From: Hyalangium versicolor | GTDB lineage: Bacteria; Myxococcota; Myxococcia; Myxococcales; Myxococcaceae | Reading direction: 5' to 3' | DNA: 64,000 nucleotides | Assembly: GCF_020103695.1 (NCBI RefSeq) | Contig: NZ_JAHXBF010000037.1 | Location: forward strand, 1-64,000 | In this document: positions 10,504-18,744 of the stretch, in pieces | How the letters are laid out: each line of letters begins with the position of its first letter | Position numbering within the stretch: position 1 is the first letter of the stretch | Program-made: the position numbers and the translations under genes | The notes under the pieces: generated by a model | What the model was told of the DNA's origin: nothing | Databases searched by the model: none | The model's input: only the letters and a program-made list of their open reading frames with translations

Positions 10504-11103
10504 ATGGACTTCTTTCCCGATGTCACACTGGCAGTAGTGGCTGGAGGCCAGGGCCGGCGGCTGTCCGGAGTACCCAAGGGGCTCCTGAAGCTGGGCGACC
10601 GCACAGTGCTGGAGCGGCTGCTCGAACTGTCGCCGCTGTTCGCGGAGGTGCTGCTCGTCGCGAACACACCCGAACCCTATGCCCGCTTCGGCCTGCGCAC
10701 GGTAGCGGACGTGGTGGAGGGCAAGGGCGCCCCGGGAGGTGTGCACGCGGCGATGGCGGGAGCGAAAACGGCGTGGGTGCTGGCGGTGGCGTGCGACATG
10801 CCCTTCGTGATGCCCGAGGTCGTGCGCGTCCTGCTGGAGGCCCGGAGCCCCGAGGTGGACGCGGTGTGCTTCACCGTCGAGGGGCGTGTCGAGCCGCTGC
10901 TCGCCGTCTACCGCTCCACCCTCGCGGGCCCATGGGGCGGGGCCTTACAGCAGGGAGACCCCTCCCTGCGCGAACTCCTCTCGCAGTGCAGGCCCCAGCT
11001 CCTGCCAGAGGAAGCGCTTCGAGCCGTGGACCCGGAAATGAACTCCCGGGTGAACGTGAACACGCCCGAGGACCTGCTCCGTTATGGGCTCTCGTTGCCC
11101 TGA
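10504..11103 (+). CDS. mobA: Molybdenum cofactor guanylyltransferase MobA
   Basis: MobA transfers GMP from GTP to molybdopterin. The 199-residue product has the nucleotidyltransferase start VVAGGQGRRLSGVPKGLL, the GAPGGVHAAM block and the metal site CDMPFV. I chose the ATG at 10504, since it places the glycine-rich motif near residue 12 as in the family. It converges on the histidine kinase gene, overlapping its last 22 bases. Confidence 0.95.
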   Translation: MDFFPDVTLAVVAGGQGRRLSGVPKGLLKLGDRTVLERLLELSPLFAEVLLVANTPEPYARFGLRTVADVVEGKGAPGGVHAAMAGAKTAWVLAVACDMPFVMPEVVRVLLEARSPEVDAVCFTVEGRVEPLLAVYRSTLAGPWGGALQQGDPSLRELLSQCRPQLLPEEALRAVDPEMNSRVNVNTPEDLLRYGLSLP

Positions 11104-12548
11104 GGCGAGCGCGGCAGGCGCACGGTGAAGGTGGTGCCCTCCTCTCGAGTGGAGCGGGCCTCGAGCGTCCCGCCATGCGCCCGCGTGATCTGGTACGCGA
11201 TGAAGAGCCCCAGCCCCAACCCGGCGCTCTGCCCGTTCTCCTCCTTGCGCATGCCCCGGCGGAACGGCTCGAAGAGCCGAGGGAGCAACTGAGGCTCGAT
11301 GGGCTCGCCCAGGTTGTGCACCTCGAGCCGCACCCATGCCTCCTCACCTCTCACGGTCACCGTCACCGGCTGATCCGGAGGGCTGTAGTCCAGGGCGTTC
11401 TTCACCAGGTTGCCCACCAATTGCGCCAGCCGATCTCCATCCCACTCGCCCTGGAGATCTCCCTCCACGTGCACCCGCAGCTCTCGCTCCGGCCACGCCA
11501 CCCGCAGCTCCTCCAGCACCGGGCGGCAGGTGACGCGCAGGTCCACCTGCTGGCGGATGATGGGAATGCCTCCGCCCAGCCGCCCGCGCGTGAAGTCCAG
11601 CAGGTCGCTGATCATCCGCGCCATCCGCTCGGCGCTCTGGGAGATGCGCCCGGCCGGCTTGCGCAGGCGCGTCGGCATCTCGTCGTCGCGCAGCAACACG
11701 CTGGCCGACAGCGCGATGGCATTGAGCGGGTTGCGCAGATCATGACTGACGATGCCCAGGAAGCGCTCGCGGAACTCCGCCGTCCGCCGCAGCTCCTCCT
11801 CCCGCCGCTGGTGGTCCGTCAGGTCGGTGCTGATCACCACCGCGCCCACGATGCGCTCTCCCATGCGCACCGGTGCCGCCGCGCAGCGGGCCACCAGGGT
11901 CCGGCCCGTGCTCGCGTGGCGCAGCACCACGTCGCGTGTCACCGCCTCGCCCCTCAGGGCGCGCGCGAAGGGCTCCTCCTCGGCGGGGAGACGCTGGCGC
12001 GTCACCGAATCCAGGCTCTGGAGCCGCTCCCCAAGCTCCAGTGGGGAGGTGTTCTTGAGGTTGCCTCCCAGCAGCGCCCGGGCCGGAGCGTTGGCGTGCG
12101 TGATGGACTCGGAGTCTCCCACGTACACGGCGTCCGGGATGCTCTCGAGGATGGCCTCCAGCTGCGCCGCGTGGTGAGCCACGGTGTCCTGCTCCTCTGG
12201 GCTCTTCGCGGCGGCCGCCTCCTGGACCTGATCGAGGAAGCGGTGGAGCACCCGCAGCTCCGAAAATTGGAGCACTCCCCCGGTCTCCTCCAACAACCCG
12301 AGCAGTCCATCGCGCAACAGTCCACACGCCCGAGCCACCACCGCGGCACCTGGCGACATCGAAGGCAGCACTCCGTCCAGCGGCTTCCCTTCGAGCCGGG
12401 CCTGGAGCCCGTCCAACATCCGGGGCAGCAGCTCGAGGAGCCGCTTGCGCATCGACTCCGCGTTCGGGAGCCCTTCGGATACATTTCGCCCGAGCCGGGA
12501 GAGGAGTTCCTCGCGCCGGGTCGCGAGCACCTCTCGCAGGCCGTTCAT
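11082..12548 (-). CDS. PAS-containing sensor histidine kinase
   Basis: This 488-residue protein has no clear membrane segment, so it is probably cytoplasmic. An N-terminal helical region is followed by a PAS domain (ILESIPDAVYVGDSES), then the dimerisation block GIVSHDLRNPLNAI with the phospho-acceptor His, and an ATPase domain (NLVKNALDYS, GLGLGLFIAYQI). The start at 12548 lies 4 bases after the stop of a single-domain response regulator on the same strand, so the two form a two-component operon. A GTG 12 bases upstream is an alternative start. Confidence 0.9.
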   Translation of the reverse strand: MNGLREVLATRREELLSRLGRNVSEGLPNAESMRKRLLELLPRMLDGLQARLEGKPLDGVLPSMSPGAAVVARACGLLRDGLLGLLEETGGVLQFSELRVLHRFLDQVQEAAAAKSPEEQDTVAHHAAQLEAILESIPDAVYVGDSESITHANAPARALLGGNLKNTSPLELGERLQSLDSVTRQRLPAEEEPFARALRGEAVTRDVVLRHASTGRTLVARCAAAPVRMGERIVGAVVISTDLTDHQRREEELRRTAEFRERFLGIVSHDLRNPLNAIALSASVLLRDDEMPTRLRKPAGRISQSAERMARMISDLLDFTRGRLGGGIPIIRQQVDLRVTCRPVLEELRVAWPERELRVHVEGDLQGEWDGDRLAQLVGNLVKNALDYSPPDQPVTVTVRGEEAWVRLEVHNLGEPIEPQLLPRLFEPFRRGMRKEENGQSAGLGLGLFIAYQITRAHGGTLEARSTREEGTTFTVRLPRSPQGNESP

Positions 12549-12552
12549 TGCT

Positions 12553-12918
12553 TCATCCACAGTGCATGGAGACAGTAGCGAACAGCTCGCTGATCTCGAA
12601 CGGCTTTTTGAGGATGCCCTGGGTTCCCGGAAGGACCGTGCGGCCACTGGCGGTGACGATGATGATGGGCACCGGGCTCATGGCCGGGTTGTCCCGGATG
12701 TGCCGGAGGAACTCCTCGCCACTCATCACCGGCATCATCAAATCCAACAGCACGAGGCAGGGGGGGCCGATCTGATCGAGCACCTCCAGCCCCTCCTGGC
12801 CATTCGAGGCCACGGCCACCTCGAAGCCTTCGGTCTCGAGGAGCTCAGCCATGGCCGCACGGATGTCCTCATCGTCCTCGACGATCAGGATGTTGCCTCG
12901 TTCGCCGATCGTGCTCAC
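12553..12918 (-). CDS. Single-domain response regulator
   Basis: The product has 121 residues, starting at a GTG (12918; reads STIGERGNILIVEDDEDIR). It has the acidic pair EDDED, the phospho-acceptor Asp in LVLLDLMMPVMSGEE, the conserved Thr in IIIVTASG and the Lys in GILKKPFE. There is no output domain, so it must act through a partner, as CheY-like proteins do. It is the first gene of an operon with the kinase at 11082-12548. It is embedded in a much longer minus-strand open frame that is only antisense to the regulator gene at 13099. Confidence 0.9.
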   Translation of the reverse strand: MSTIGERGNILIVEDDEDIRAAMAELLETEGFEVAVASNGQEGLEVLDQIGPPCLVLLDLMMPVMSGEEFLRHIRDNPAMSPVPIIIVTASGRTVLPGTQGILKKPFEISELFATVSMHCG

Positions 12919-13098
12919 ACCTGGATTGTAGGCAGCCTTACGGTGATGGGGAGTGCGTGCCCGAGAACTCTGTCGGATTCCAACGAGCGCACGGCCTCGG
13001 AGTGCGAGTGGGGGGTGATCCGGACTCCTTCGCGCCACCGTCCAACGTTCGATACAGTGCCACGCCGGGACGGTGGTCAGCCGGAGCGGATTTCTACC

Positions 13099-14727
13099 AT
13101 GCGCGAGGGAAGATTTGCCGACGAGTCGACGATCGGCTTCAAGAAGCGGAACCACAGCGAGCCCGTGGCCCGCCTCGTCCCCGCGTTGACCATCGTCTCG
13201 CACCCCATGTCGCATCGCGTGGGCGAACGCCTGCTCCTGGACGGAGTCATGGCGGGCCGCGAGGAGGGCGTCTCCCGCAACGCCCCGGACTTCATGCGCC
13301 CGGATGCCGCGCTGGGCTCTCCCCTGGCCGATCCCTTCCTGAGCCGCAAGCCCGTCGTCTTCGCGTCGGGCTCGACAGGGGGCGTGCGGTTGACCCCCGG
13401 CGATGGCATCAAGGTCACCCTGGCGGGCGAAGTGCTCAAGAGCCCCTGGGAGTTCTCTCCCGAGGAGCTCTCGGTGGGCGTGGCGCTGGAGCTGGCCGAG
13501 CGCGTGGTGGTGCTGCTGCACTGGGCCGATCCTTCGGCGAACTCCCCCGTGGATGCGCTGGGCATGGTGGGCACCAGTGTGGGCATCCAGAACGTGCGTC
13601 ACCACATCGAGCAGGTGGCGGACTTGCGGGTGCCGGTGCTCGTGCGCGGAGAGACGGGCTCGGGCAAGGAGCTCATCGCCCAGGCCATCCACCGGCAGAG
13701 CGCGCGCCGCGAGAAGGTTTTCATCAGCGTGAACCTGGGCGCCATCCCCAAGGAGCTGGCGGCCTCGGAGCTGTTCGGCGCCACGCGCGGCGCCTTCACG
13801 GGCGCAGTGAGGGACCGCGAGGGCTTCTTCCGCGCCGCCCACGAGGGCACGCTCTTCCTGGACGAGGTGGGCGAGGCGCCCCCCGAGGTGCAGGTGATGC
13901 TGCTGCGCGTGCTGGAGACGGGGGAAATCTATCCCGTGGGCGAGCGCACTCCGGTGAAGGTGGATGTCCGGCTCATCGCCGCGACGGATGCGCATCTGGA
14001 GCAGCAGATCCAGGAAGGGCGCTTCAAGGCGCCGCTGCTGCACCGGCTGGCGGGCTATGAGATTCGCGTGCCTCCGCTGCGGGAGCGGCGGGAGGACATC
14101 GGGCTCTTGTTCCACCACTTCGCGCGCGAGGAGCTGGAGTCCATCGGCGAGGCGTGGCGGCTGAAGCCGGAGGACTCGTCCACCGAGCCGTGGCTGCCGG
14201 CACCGTTGGCCTCGCGGCTGGTGCGCTACGGGTGGCCGGGCAACATCCGGCAGCTGCGCAACCTCACGCGCCAGCTCATCATCGGCAGCCGGGGGCACTC
14301 GCGGCTGCGGCTGGATCCGCGCTTGGAGAAGGAGCTGGAGCAGTCCCTGCTGCCACGGCCCGGCCGTCCCATCTCCGGGACCGGGCAGGCCGTGGGGGCC
14401 GAGCCGAAGCCTCCCGAGCAGAAGGGCTCCTCCCGCCGCAGGGCCTCGGAGGTCTCCGAGCCGGAGCTGCTCGCGGCCCTGCGCGAGAGCGCGTGGGACC
14501 TGAAGGCCGCCGCGGACCGGCTGGGCATCCCCCGCTCCTCCATCTACGACTTGATCGACAAGAGCCCCAACATTCGCACCGCGGGGGACCTCACCGTGGA
14601 GGAGATCACCCGCTGCTTCCAGGAGTGCTCCGGAGACCTGGATGCCATGGCGCAGCGCCTGGAGGTCTCCAAGCGGGCCCTGGGCCGCCGCATCAAGGAG
14701 TTGGGTCTGGAGGACCGGAGGACCTGA
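13099..14727 (+). CDS. Sigma-54 enhancer-binding regulator with FHA-like N-terminus
   Basis: This 542-residue activator has a beta-rich N-terminal region (about 25-142) resembling the FHA-type input domains of myxobacterial regulators. The AAA+ core carries Walker A GETGSGKE (184-191), the sigma-54 contact loop GAFTGA (231-236) and Walker B TLFLDEV (251-257). The C-terminus (454-542) holds two successive Fis-type helix-turn-helix units: DLKAAADRLGIPRSSIYDLI and DLDAMAQRLEVSKRALGRRI. One such unit is usual; two could widen or strengthen DNA contact. There is no receiver domain. The gene is followed by a tandem dyad, a -24/-12 promoter and a small ORF, its likely local target. Confidence 0.92.
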   Translation: MREGRFADESTIGFKKRNHSEPVARLVPALTIVSHPMSHRVGERLLLDGVMAGREEGVSRNAPDFMRPDAALGSPLADPFLSRKPVVFASGSTGGVRLTPGDGIKVTLAGEVLKSPWEFSPEELSVGVALELAERVVVLLHWADPSANSPVDALGMVGTSVGIQNVRHHIEQVADLRVPVLVRGETGSGKELIAQAIHRQSARREKVFISVNLGAIPKELAASELFGATRGAFTGAVRDREGFFRAAHEGTLFLDEVGEAPPEVQVMLLRVLETGEIYPVGERTPVKVDVRLIAATDAHLEQQIQEGRFKAPLLHRLAGYEIRVPPLRERREDIGLLFHHFAREELESIGEAWRLKPEDSSTEPWLPAPLASRLVRYGWPGNIRQLRNLTRQLIIGSRGHSRLRLDPRLEKELEQSLLPRPGRPISGTGQAVGAEPKPPEQKGSSRRRASEVSEPELLAALRESAWDLKAAADRLGIPRSSIYDLIDKSPNIRTAGDLTVEEITRCFQECSGDLDAMAQRLEVSKRALGRRIKELGLEDRRT

Positions 14728-14760
14728 TCCTCTGAGCAGGTTTCCGTGTCAACGGCCGGT

Positions 14761-14794
14761 CCGACGTGTCGGGTCTCCCTGTCCGACGTGTCGG
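14761..14794 (+). promoter_or_regulatory. Tandem 12-bp dyads, candidate enhancer (UAS)
   Basis: CCGACGTGTCGG occurs at 14761-14772 and again, identically, at 14783-14794. Each copy is an inverted repeat (CCGAC-gt-GTCGG) and the copies are 22 bp apart, two helical turns. They lie about 110-135 bp upstream of the start expected from the sigma-54 promoter at 14875, the usual range for activator sites. The likely binder is the regulator encoded just upstream (inference). Confidence 0.6.
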
Positions 14795-14874
14795 AACCCG
14801 GCCTGACACATCTGTTGGCCAGCCGATAGAAATGACAGACCCGAAAGAGCAGCCGATTTTCCGGCTCTTGGGCG

Positions 14875-14890
14875 TGGCATCGCGATTGCT
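14875..14890 (+). promoter_or_regulatory. Candidate sigma-54 (-24/-12) promoter
   Basis: TGGCATCGCGATTGCT matches the consensus TGGCACG-N4-TTGCA/T with correct 10-base spacing between the GG and GC pairs. It points right toward the small ORF at 15009; transcription would start near 14901. A leader hairpin TCTCAC-ggggg-GTGAGA lies at 14946-14962. Confidence 0.6.
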
Positions 14891-15008
14891 CAAGCGTTCC
14901 CTCGGTAGGGAGGAGCGCAGGGGGTTGGGTAGGGCAGTGGCGGGTTCTCACGGGGGGTGAGAGCCTCCTCCACCTTCCAAATCAGTTCAGGACACAGGGG
15001 GTAGCACC

Positions 15009-15149
15009 ATGGCGACCGAGAGCGACAAGAAGACGACCCAGACGAGCGGTTCAGGCAAGTCGACGAACAGCGGTAACACCGGGTCGACCTCGAGCGCCGG
15101 TGGTGGCGGCGGCGGCGGGACCGGGGACGTGATCATCGTCTCGGGTTAG
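15009..15149 (+). CDS. 46-residue Ser/Thr/Gly-rich small protein
   Basis: A short ORF starts at the ATG at 15009, 6 bases after a purine-rich AGGGGGT. The first 35 residues are polar (TESDKKTTQTSGSGKSTNSG), followed by seven glycines in a row and a hydrophobic tail GDVIIVSG. It has no signal peptide or membrane helix. It is flanked by a sigma-54 promoter, a plausible ribosome-binding site and a terminator. Its end overlaps the converging kinase gene by 17 bases. The function is unknown. The polar linker, polyglycine and short hydrophobic tail recall peptide precursors, but no modifying enzyme is adjacent. Confidence 0.55.
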   Translation: MATESDKKTTQTSGSGKSTNSGNTGSTSSAGGGGGGGTGDVIIVSG

Positions 15150-18100
15150 TCCCCAGGTGGGGGTTCTTTAGCAGTGCTCGGGAGAAGTCCTCCTGAGCCC
15201 GAGCCCGCAGGGTCAGCTGCTCATCAGGGCGGTTCTCCAAGGACGCCCGCAGCAACGACAACTGAGCACGCACAAGCAGCGCCTGCGGCCACTCGGGACA
15301 TGTTGACAGGGCTTCTTCCACCAAGGCGAGGCCGCGCTCTAGCTGGGGGGCTGGGGCGCGGCCCGCATCCTTTTCGAACATCGCCCAGGAGTGCTGCAGC
15401 GAACCGAAGGCCAGTCGAGCCTCGGCCGCATCCGGCAGCAGCGCGAGTGAGCGCTCGAAGTGGCGTTCCGCCTCCTGGAATTCCTGCAGGCTTCCCTGTC
15501 CGCGCTGTGCGTGCCAGCGGGCCATGAACCCCTGGAGCTCCGCCAGCTCGAGCCACGCCCGGCCATGTTGAGGGTTGATGGCCAGGGCCTCGCGCAGGGC
15601 CTTCTCCGAGTGCTGGAGCTGAGGGCGCGGATCCTTTCCCTGCCGCAGGTCCACCTCGGCCAGCAGGAGGAAGCCGCTGCCCACGCTGATCTGCGGCTCG
15701 GTGCCATTCTTTCCCAGTCGGATGGCCTGCTCGAGCGACGCGAGCGCGGAGCGCATGCTCGCGGTGGGGTTCTGGGACTGGCGCCAGAGGTACGTGGCGC
15801 GCCACAGGTGGGCCTCGCCCAGGTTGGTGTGACCGAACACTTGTTGCGGCGCCAGGTGGATGGCCTGCTCGAAGGCGGCCTGGGCCTTGTCGAGGAGGGG
15901 GAAGGGATCGCCTCCGTGCTCCCACGTCTGCTGCGCCTGGTGGAGCAGCGCGATGCCCAGTCCATTGTGGAGCTGTGGGTTCTGATTGATGGCCAGCCCC
16001 TGGCTGTACAGCTCGAGGGCCGTGCTCAGGTGGCGCGAGGCCTCCGGGCCGCACGGGTGCAATTCGGCCCACTGTGCCTGGATGAGGCCGCCATAGAGGT
16101 AGGGCACCCAGTTGCGGGGGTTGAGCTCCATGGCCCGTTGGAGCGCGGTCCACGCCTGCCTCAGGTCCTCCTCCTGCTGCTCGCTCACCGGGCCCTTCTC
16201 GTTGGGCGCGGGGTGCTCGGCCCGGCGGTAGAAGGCCATGCCGAGGTTGCTCCACGCGTCCGGGATGCGCGGGCTCAGGCGGGTGGCCTCCTGGAAGGAC
16301 TCGATGGCCTGGCGACGATGGTCCGCGGAGCTGGCGCCGGTGTCGTCCTCGTAGCCGGCCCACATGAAGAAGAGCCCGCCCAGCGTGTTGTGGAAGTCAT
16401 AGTCCCGATCCTTGGGAGCGATCTGCTGGAGGGCCTGCACCGACTGGCGCAGTTGCTCGCGCGGATCCTGGCCCCGGCTCACGCGGAAGTTCGCGGACTG
16501 GAAGAGGATGCGCCCCAGCTCCAGGTGCGTCTGCGGACCGGTGAGCCCCTGTTCGAGCGCCTTTCGCGCGGCGGCGAGCGCCGCATCGAGCGCGGCCTGC
16601 GGATCCTCTCCGTGGGTGGTGCGGTACTCGGCGAGCCGGCGGTGGAAGCGGGCCTCGAGCAGCAGCGAGGTGGGATCCTCGGGCAGGGCCTCGAGGGCGT
16701 GCACCACGGCTTGCCTGCCTCGGGTGAGGGGAGGCAGCACGTCACCGTGCCCGTACATCTCCATGAGCGCGGCGGTGTATTCGAGCTTGGCCAGGGCCTG
16801 GTGCACGGCGGGCACGCTCTCGCCAATGGCGGCAGCGGCGGCGTAGGCGTTGCGGCCGGCCTCGAAGTCGGCGAGCGCGCCCTCACGGTCTCCCTGGTTC
16901 CAGCGCCGGGCGGCGCGAGCCTGGAGGATGTCTCCGTGCAGCAGGGGCACCTCGTAGAGCCAGGGCAGGCGATTGCCCATGGCATCCACTCGCGCGAGGG
17001 CCTCGTCCAGCCGGTCCTCATAGAAAGAGAGCAGGGCCGAGACGTAGTCAGCGGAGGGCACGTCGGCGCCCTGGCTCAGGCGCAGGTAGACGAGGGCCGG
17101 ATCGCGGAAGTCGCGTTGGAGCTCCTGCTTGCGGACCTCGCGCAGTTCGGGGTTGCGGGTGCGCTCCACCTCCAGGAGCTGATCCTGGTACAGGTGGCCC
17201 AGCACGAGGGCCAACGCATAGGCGACGCGGGGTTCGTGGAAGCCGCTGTTCCATGCGAGCTCCAGGTGCTTGCGCGCCAGCGCATCATCCCCGAGCGCCA
17301 GGTAGCCGCGGGCCAGGGCGTAATTGCCGGGGCCCACGGCGGCGTCTCCGGCTTGGCGGATCTGCGTGCCCAGCTCCTCCATGTGCTGGCGGATCTCCTT
17401 GCGGTCCTCGCGCGTGTCGTGGAGCGGCGAGAGGCCCGAGTAGCGCGCCAGGGCTTCGATGTGCTCGACCTTCTCGGTGAAGCGGCGGGCGAGCTCCTCG
17501 CGGTGGGTGGCCTGGGAGTGGGTGTAGATGGCCGAGCCCAGCGCGAGGGCGACGGCGAGCAGGGCCGCGGAGGCCACGCTGACGATGAGCCGGTGCTTGC
17601 GAGCCTTCTTGCGCAGCCAGTACCAGAAGCCGGTGGGGCGGGCCTGGATGGGCTCGCCGGCCAGGAAGCGATCGAGATCCTCGATGAGGGAGCGCGCCGA
17701 GTCGTAGCGGACGGAGCGGTCCTTCTCGAGACACTTGAGGACGATGGCCTCGAGGTCCGCGGGGATGTTCGGGTTGAGCTTGCGGGGCGGGGTGGGCTCG
17801 ACGGTGGCGATGTTGTTGAGAACCTCCAACCCGTTGGCGCCGGGGATGGGAGGCTCGCCGGTGAGGAGGAAGTAGAGCGTGGCGCCGAGGCTGTAGACGT
17901 CGGCGCGCCGATCCAGGCTCTGCACCTCGCCCCGGGCCTGCTCGGGAGACATATAATGTGGCGTGCCGAGCACCGAGCCGGTGGAGGTGGCGCCGCCCTT
18001 CTCACTCCAATCATGGGCCAGGCCGAAGTCCATGACGAAGGGCTTGAGGCGGCCGTCTTCGGAGCGCTCCACGAGGATGTTGGAGGGCTTGAGGTCTCGG

Positions 18101-18744
18101 TGGATCAGCCCGGCGCGGTGGGCGGCGTGAACGCCCTCGGCGGCATCCCGGAGCGCGAGCACCTTCTGTTCCACGGTGAGCTCGTCCGACAGTTGCCCCA
18201 GGGGCAGGCCATCGACGAACTGCATGGCGATGTAGGGCTTGCCCTGAACTTCGCCGACTTCGTGGACCTTGCAGACGCGCTCGTGCTCGACGCGGGCCTG
18301 GGAGCGAGCCTCGGACAGCAGGCGGCGGACGAGTTCCGCGTCATCGCCCTTGACGAACTTGAGGGCGACGTTGCGGCGCAGGCGCAAGTCGTAGGCGAGG
18401 AAGACCTGGCCCATGCCGCCCTGGCCGAGGAAGCGGACCCCCGAGTAGCGATCCCAACCGGGGATGGGGAAGGCGGGGTCTACCTTGTCGCGATCGTTGA
18501 GCGTGAGGGCGGGGCCGAGCGTCTCGCCATTGTCCGTCCGCGAGCGCGGCACGAGGGTGGGGTCGACATCGGCCTTGCGGATTTCGGCGAGGGACTCCTC
18601 GGAGATGAGGCCCCGCTCCTTGAGGAGGGACATGGGGCTGCGGCCCAGGCGGCGGGCCTCTTCGCCCAGCGAGGTGGCCTCCTCGCGCGAGATGAGGCCC
18701 TCGGCCACGGCCATGCGCAGCTCTGCCTCGGTATCGACGCGCAT
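15133..18744 (-). CDS. Membrane Ser/Thr protein kinase with TPR sensor region
   Basis: The product has 1203 residues. A helical N-terminal section (1-60) precedes the kinase: Gly loop GQGGMGQV (107-114), catalytic Lys129, HRDLKPSN (215-222), DFG (239-241) and PHYMSPEQARG. One membrane helix lies at about 385-406 (RLIVSVASAALLAVALALGS). The remaining 790 residues are TPR-like helical repeats, probably in the periplasm or facing a protein partner. This is a PknB-like architecture typical of myxobacteria. The 3' end overlaps the small sigma-54-controlled ORF by 17 bases in convergent arrangement. Confidence 0.92.
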   Translation of the reverse strand: MRVDTEAELRMAVAEGLISREEATSLGEEARRLGRSPMSLLKERGLISEESLAEIRKADVDPTLVPRSRTDNGETLGPALTLNDRDKVDPAFPIPGWDRYSGVRFLGQGGMGQVFLAYDLRLRRNVALKFVKGDDAELVRRLLSEARSQARVEHERVCKVHEVGEVQGKPYIAMQFVDGLPLGQLSDELTVEQKVLALRDAAEGVHAAHRAGLIHRDLKPSNILVERSEDGRLKPFVMDFGLAHDWSEKGGATSTGSVLGTPHYMSPEQARGEVQSLDRRADVYSLGATLYFLLTGEPPIPGANGLEVLNNIATVEPTPPRKLNPNIPADLEAIVLKCLEKDRSVRYDSARSLIEDLDRFLAGEPIQARPTGFWYWLRKKARKHRLIVSVASAALLAVALALGSAIYTHSQATHREELARRFTEKVEHIEALARYSGLSPLHDTREDRKEIRQHMEELGTQIRQAGDAAVGPGNYALARGYLALGDDALARKHLELAWNSGFHEPRVAYALALVLGHLYQDQLLEVERTRNPELREVRKQELQRDFRDPALVYLRLSQGADVPSADYVSALLSFYEDRLDEALARVDAMGNRLPWLYEVPLLHGDILQARAARRWNQGDREGALADFEAGRNAYAAAAAIGESVPAVHQALAKLEYTAALMEMYGHGDVLPPLTRGRQAVVHALEALPEDPTSLLLEARFHRRLAEYRTTHGEDPQAALDAALAAARKALEQGLTGPQTHLELGRILFQSANFRVSRGQDPREQLRQSVQALQQIAPKDRDYDFHNTLGGLFFMWAGYEDDTGASSADHRRQAIESFQEATRLSPRIPDAWSNLGMAFYRRAEHPAPNEKGPVSEQQEEDLRQAWTALQRAMELNPRNWVPYLYGGLIQAQWAELHPCGPEASRHLSTALELYSQGLAINQNPQLHNGLGIALLHQAQQTWEHGGDPFPLLDKAQAAFEQAIHLAPQQVFGHTNLGEAHLWRATYLWRQSQNPTASMRSALASLEQAIRLGKNGTEPQISVGSGFLLLAEVDLRQGKDPRPQLQHSEKALREALAINPQHGRAWLELAELQGFMARWHAQRGQGSLQEFQEAERHFERSLALLPDAAEARLAFGSLQHSWAMFEKDAGRAPAPQLERGLALVEEALSTCPEWPQALLVRAQLSLLRASLENRPDEQLTLRARAQEDFSRALLKNPHLGTNPRR
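15151..15168 (+). terminator. Intrinsic terminator of the small ORF
   Basis: CCCCA-gg-TGGGG followed by gTTCTTT lies directly after the stop codon of the 46-codon ORF. It is inside the 3' end of the converging kinase gene. Confidence 0.55.

Follow-up and report, generated by a model that had tools for sequence, protein, structure and literature searches.

The window, the whole 64-kb stretch of DNA analysed here, contains between positions 13099 and 18744 a gene for an FHA-domain activator of sigma-54 promoters, a mini-ORF behind paired dyads and a predicted -24/-12 promoter, and a convergent gene for a membrane Ser/Thr kinase. Seven further genomes, six from the same genus and one from a neighbouring genus, encode an orthologous activator (72-92% identical); the eight, this one included, form one supported clade, and all are accompanied by mini-ORFs. 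The features of the locus are as follows.

13099..14727, plus strand: FHA-domain sigma-54 enhancer-binding protein, 542 aa (Pfam, AlphaFold2, Foldseek/VIA-align); domain order disordered N-tail, FHA, AAA+ with GAFTGA, Fis-type HTH
13120..13131, plus strand: D-x-S-T motif (DEST), candidate phospho-acceptor in the disordered N-tail, about 20 residues before the FHA core
13168..13536, plus strand: FHA domain, residues 24-146 (AlphaFold2, Foldseek, VIA-align)
14761..14772, no strand: dyad 1, CCGACGTGTCGG, exact match, putative upstream activating site
14783..14794, no strand: dyad 2, CCGACGTGTCGG, exact match
14875..14890, plus strand: predicted -24/-12 promoter TGGCATCGCGATTGCT, with TGGYATCGCNNTTGCT conserved in all eight loci
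14943..14965, plus strand: leader stem-loop, recognisable in two to three of the eight orthologs (close species)
14996..15001, plus strand: Shine-Dalgarno-like AGGGGG, by direct reading, kept in G002 and G003
15009..15149, plus strand: 46-aa mini-protein MATESDKKTTQTSGSGKSTNSGNTGSTSSAGGGGGGGTGDVIIVSG, with in-frame orthologs in eight loci
15133..18744, minus strand: convergent membrane Ser/Thr kinase with C-terminal TPRs, 1203 aa (Pkinase 2.5e-38, TPRs)

Conservation of the dyads, promoter and mini-ORF

The two identical dyads and the good -24/-12 promoter claimed in a preliminary description of this DNA are both present. The exact copies of CCGACGTGTCGG lie 22 bp apart, with no further exact copy in the window, and the pair is kept as GAC-N2-GTCG in all eight orthologous loci at a spacing of 21-22 bp, dyad 2 being separated from the -24 element by 78-80 bp in every case. 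TGGCATCGCGATTGCT has GG at -24 and GC at -12 at the correct spacing; three sites as good exist in the window when both strands are counted, this genome contains a single instance of the 16-mer pattern, and few parts of the locus are as well conserved as the promoter. A transcript would be expected to start at about 14901. In a conservation check set beforehand, the layout of dyads, promoter and ORF beside the regulator was found in 8/8 orthologous loci with near-fixed spacings. A chance arrangement without function, which has nothing in its favour except that the parts are small, is already contradicted by this conservation, and when each orthologous region was shuffled 3000 times, a GAC-N2-GTCG pair at the observed spacing arose no more than once; we give such an arrangement practically no credence.

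The small ORF, described earlier as having a plausible ribosome-binding site, indeed begins with an ATG preceded by AGGGGG and has a GC3 of 0.87. Its orthologs are in frame in all eight loci, span 36-46 codons and start 62-124 nt after the GC of the -12 element. Every one of the eight mini-proteins opens with MA-, contains 17-28% Thr and carries its hydrophobic residues almost solely at the C-terminus; in the protein of this locus, which is rich in Thr, Ser and Gly, they are confined to the tail TGDVIIVSG. A GxhxV/I tail is found in six of the eight orthologs, as against 0.2-1.8% of shuffles, the other two being without the strict motif. Searches of Pfam and NCBIfam with the 46-aa ORF returned no match. 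The acidic, Thr-containing N-terminus ([DE]-x-[DES]-T in seven of eight) resembles the D-x-S-T motif of the activator; the motif is too short for this likeness to count.

The leader and the overlap with the kinase gene bear on whether the product is a peptide or an RNA. The last 17 bp of the mini-ORF are shared with the 3' end of the kinase gene, in agreement with the convergence previously noted, and no evident terminator lies between; this is what a regulatory or antisense RNA acting on the kinase mRNA, with the ORF incidental, would have in its favour. The intrinsic terminator that had been proposed is not supported: a scan gave no match, folding was unremarkable (z -0.24), and the GC-rich stem consists of codons for the conserved NPHL end of the kinase. 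The leader hairpin exists as a local stem and was considered as a riboswitch or sRNA element; this candidate was rejected, the hairpin being not generally conserved and, in this genome, folding no better than shuffled sequence (z 0.66). The whole leader of G002 does fold better than shuffles (z -2.8). The hairpin is probably inessential. As neither leader length nor hairpin is conserved, the product is more likely a peptide than an RNA; moreover, the coding frame is conserved and a search of the region against Rfam found no match, all of which makes the RNA reading improbable. The further claim that activation would produce antisense RNA over the 3' end of the kinase gene is unsupported.

The activator and the facing kinase

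The regulator had been called an FHA-type enhancer-binding protein, and both halves of that name hold, each by a different route. Pfam recognises the AAA+ domain (Sigma54_activat, PF00158, E 7.7e-61), whose GAFTGA loop can be read in the translation, and a C-terminal Fis-type HTH (HTH_8, E 1e-9, residues 454-483). The FHA domain has no Pfam match by sequence and was identified through its predicted fold: AlphaFold2 predicts an FHA fold for residues 24-146 with high confidence, all top Foldseek matches of the N-terminus are FHA domains, and the best VIA-align matches are the FHA domain of Bdellovibrio DgcB (including 6hc1), an archaeal FHA, GarA, OdhI and EmbR, with a Z of 13.1 and an rmsd of 1.8 over 99 aligned residues for 6hc0. 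Arg60 and Ser82 are invariant across 33 sequences and pair by eye with the phosphothreonine-binding Arg70 and Ser85 of Rad53; the next His is Pro in the activator ('SR.P'). Ahead of this domain, the N-tail has a pLDDT below 50 in the AlphaFold2 model and is thus predicted to be disordered, and a [DEN]-x-[S/T/I]-T motif occurs in 70 of 79 family activators, almost without exception 19-21 residues ahead of the FHA core. Judging from these sequence comparisons, the D-x-S-T motif upstream of the FHA domain is likely to be a phosphorylation switch of FHA activators.

Three observations concern the activator gene and its surroundings. Its end (window 14458-14724) seems to encode two consecutive Fis-type HTH segments, the second recognised by eye and the first alone called by Pfam; these tandem segments might be related to the paired dyads. 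Inside the 5' coding end of the gene, CCGACGAGTCGA at window 13118-13129 (the ADEST codons) lies two mismatches from the dyad; it could serve in autoregulation or be there by coincidence. Running divergently from the activator at window 11082-12920 are genes for a histidine kinase and a receiver-only response regulator, and the receiver gene also adjoins the activator in L003 and L005.

The facing kinase has an HRDLK motif and a TM helix about 171 residues beyond HRD. Its counterparts in related modules likewise carry the catalytic HRDLK, and 16 of the 17 listed show such a helix. The TPRs lie beyond this helix and are expected outside the cytoplasm. The TPR kinase is probably a part of the circuit and not merely an antisense target.

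Sister modules and further dyad pairs

The preliminary description had suggested an undescribed regulator-small protein module. The module is conserved; it is not a one-off, and belongs to a large paralogous family in which an FHA activator, a short gene and a convergent TPR kinase recur in several copies per genome. Additional FHA activators, sharing about 58-71% identity with the one studied here, are present in each genome of the genus, and a convergent TPR kinase ends less than 1 kb from the activator in 50 of the 78 loci with enough sequence for this count. In paralogous modules the GAC-N2-GTC core recurs in variant form between different flanks (CTGACACGTCAG in pairs at a spacing of 42 bp, TGACGCGTCA, TCGACATGTCGA); one module contains a different core, TCCACGCGTGGA, present twice at 21 bp. 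This variation fits activator-specific recognition sites. Distant relatives of the activator outside the Myxococcaceae were seen in Minicystis rosea (L124) and in Acidobacteriota (L126-L128, L130); of these, L124 and L130 lie near a convergent TPR kinase, which in L124 is immediately preceded by a short open frame ending in GTINVTP.

A short gene usually lies between activator and kinase, often with its own -24/-12-like site, and the mini-ORF occupies the same position. The sister short proteins are usually 110-190 aa long, some being apparent lipoproteins and some leaderless, and none reaches the curated cut-off of any Pfam or NCBIfam model. One leaderless group (AlphaFold2 mean pLDDT 79) is cupredoxin-like by Foldseek and VIA-align, the best match being a modest one (Z 9.1, rmsd 2.3, 84 residues); cupredoxin-like short proteins, which are the usual kind in this family, were seen at L061, L076, L082, L089, L093, L099, L107, L121 and other loci. 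Across 20 diverse sister short proteins the terminal G-x-[LI]-x-V strand has an invariant Gly and Val, and the L093 protein carries a similar Thr/Gly/Ser-rich tether ahead of its last strand. The cupredoxin-like domain is absent from the 46-aa mini-protein, and comparing sequence profiles of the mini-proteins and the cupredoxin-like family detected no homology (probability 0.1). The mini-protein is nevertheless probably a reduced version of the sister cupredoxin-like protein that has kept a flexible linker and a tail like the last strand, an assignment made solely from its position and short tail motif. The apparent lipoprotein signals of several sister short genes, together with the location of the kinase TPRs beyond the TM helix, also suggest that the mini-protein could be exported or otherwise extracytoplasmic, for example as a ligand of the TPR domain. 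However, signal peptides and hydrophobic N-termini are lacking from all eight mini-proteins, and leaderless proteins occur in some sister modules too; we regard export as unlikely.

The dyads also occur beyond the locus. A genome-wide search for the strict pattern CGACRYGTCG occurring twice was run on eight genomes. G005, G006 and G020 have the local pair only; G001 and G004 lack even this one owing to a degenerate first dyad. Three further pairs were found in G000, one in G003, and one cluster of three in G002. At a distance of 73-82 bp from each of the three extra pairs of G000 there is a -24/-12-like site scoring 8-9 of 10, and the extra pair of G003 has one about 41 bp away; by chance, such a site within a 40 bp stretch on either side is expected at about 2.5% for score 8 and 0.2% for score 9. 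The pairs with nearby promoter-like sites (L153 at about 5767, L154 at about 5703, L155 at about 5395, L156 at about 5518) precede genes which, by eye, encode a membrane oxidase-like protein, a lipoprotein, a GH5-like lipoprotein and a small protein; they are candidate regulon members, of this activator or of a sibling. A GDVPVV repeat in the unlinked GH5-like protein (L155) is regarded as a coincidence. The circuit had been called self-contained: the conserved self-targeting layout stands, while the three more pairs with -24/-12-like sites before unrelated genes in this genome mean that it is better described as self-targeting with a few candidate extra targets in certain species.

These extra pairs also bear on a rival reading, in which the promoter and dyads matter, a cupredoxin-like gene has been lost and the mini-ORF is its decaying remnant, and the circuit has come to serve unlinked targets. 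Besides the pairs elsewhere in this genome, the low-complexity linker and variable length of the mini-ORF would agree with such decay, as would its moderate to high dN/dS in distant pairs (about 1 or more in the most distant ones). Against this, the start, frame and hydrophobic tail are kept in 8/8 loci despite several indels, the promoter ranks with the best conserved parts, and a strict-pattern pair elsewhere is absent in five of the eight genomes, so that a purely distal function is unlikely there. A relic seems a rather poor explanation, if a slightly better one than export.

A probable phosphothreonine-controlled switch

We consider it fairly probable that the locus forms the output side of a sigma-54 switch governed by phosphothreonine. 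The TPR kinase would phosphorylate the Thr of D-x-S-T in the disordered N-tail of the activator; the phosphothreonine would bind an FHA domain in its own or an adjacent subunit, in the manner of DgcB and GarA, and drive assembly of the AAA+ ring; and the activator, bound to the paired GAC-N2-GTC dyads, would fire the -24/-12 promoter. The mini-protein would be the dedicated product of the switch. It might most plausibly feed back on the kinase or the FHA domain by acting, for instance, as a phosphorylated, Thr-rich competitor or as a feedback substrate; this is the weakest step, and we propose it tentatively. Transcription, translation, dyad binding, phosphorylation and feedback are steps that we infer. 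We favour the switch because the geometry is near-fixed across eight loci and rare in shuffles, in a single clade with the ORF in frame and a dN/dS of 0.22-0.59 in close pairs; because the activator combines an FHA fold matching DgcB, GarA, OdhI and EmbR with a near-fixed D-x-S-T and invariant Arg60 and Ser82; and because it faces a TPR kinase with HRDLK and a TM helix, in a family with a cupredoxin-like sister fold, an invariant Gly and Val in the last strand of the sister proteins, and dyad variants. The only moderate dN/dS of the mini-ORF, its rise to about 1 or more in the most distant pairs, the negative profile comparison with the cupredoxin-like family, the lack of a signal peptide in a mini-protein whose kinase has TPRs expected outside the cytoplasm, and an FHA domain with 'SR.P' in place of the usual His count against it.

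FHA-domain enhancer-binding proteins have been described in Myxococcus xanthus (Jelsbak, Givskov and Kaiser 2005, via PMC12288465). Like the protein studied here, they are FHA activators of sigma-54 promoters in myxobacteria, and they are implicated in development. EmbR of Mycobacterium tuberculosis is an FHA transcription factor under the membrane Ser/Thr kinase PknH. It is tabulated as a PknH substrate (PMC6213207). By VIA-align its FHA domain ranks with the best structural matches to the activator FHA, but EmbR is not a sigma-54 AAA+ activator and its FHA domain is C-terminal. We know of no mini-protein output in the EmbR-PknH system. GarA/OdhI and Bdellovibrio DgcB likewise have an FHA domain preceded by a phosphorylatable N-tail (a candidate one in the activator), and the DgcB FHA structure 6hc1 was solved with its phosphorylated N-terminal peptide; what they control, however, is enzyme activity or c-di-GMP synthesis rather than transcription. 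Plastocyanin/pseudoazurin-type cupredoxins share the fold predicted for the sister short proteins, whereas the mini-protein lacks the whole domain save a tail resembling the last strand. FHA activators, FHA-kinase pairs such as EmbR-PknH and phospho-tail FHA switches are already known kinds. In the open literature searched, which did not include Jelsbak et al. (2005), no description was found of the recurrent cassette of short gene, paired dyads and convergent TPR kinase with the N-tail D-x-S-T, and the three-part cassette and its reduced mini-protein form appear to be undescribed.

More speculatively, myxobacteria and some Acidobacteriota may use three-part cassettes of a membrane TPR kinase, a phospho-tail FHA sigma-54 activator and a dedicated small output protein, the output being reduced here to a Thr-rich peptide of 36-46 residues that would close a feedback loop on the FHA/kinase pair. 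Myxobacteria, which are predatory bacteria of the soil, have very many Ser/Thr kinases and sigma-54 activators. A conserved cassette of one membrane kinase, one FHA activator and one small output gene offers directly testable kinase-regulator-target triples, and a phosphorylated D-x-S-T tail suggests how FHA activators get switched. The locus also adds a conserved class of mini-proteins that curated family libraries have missed.
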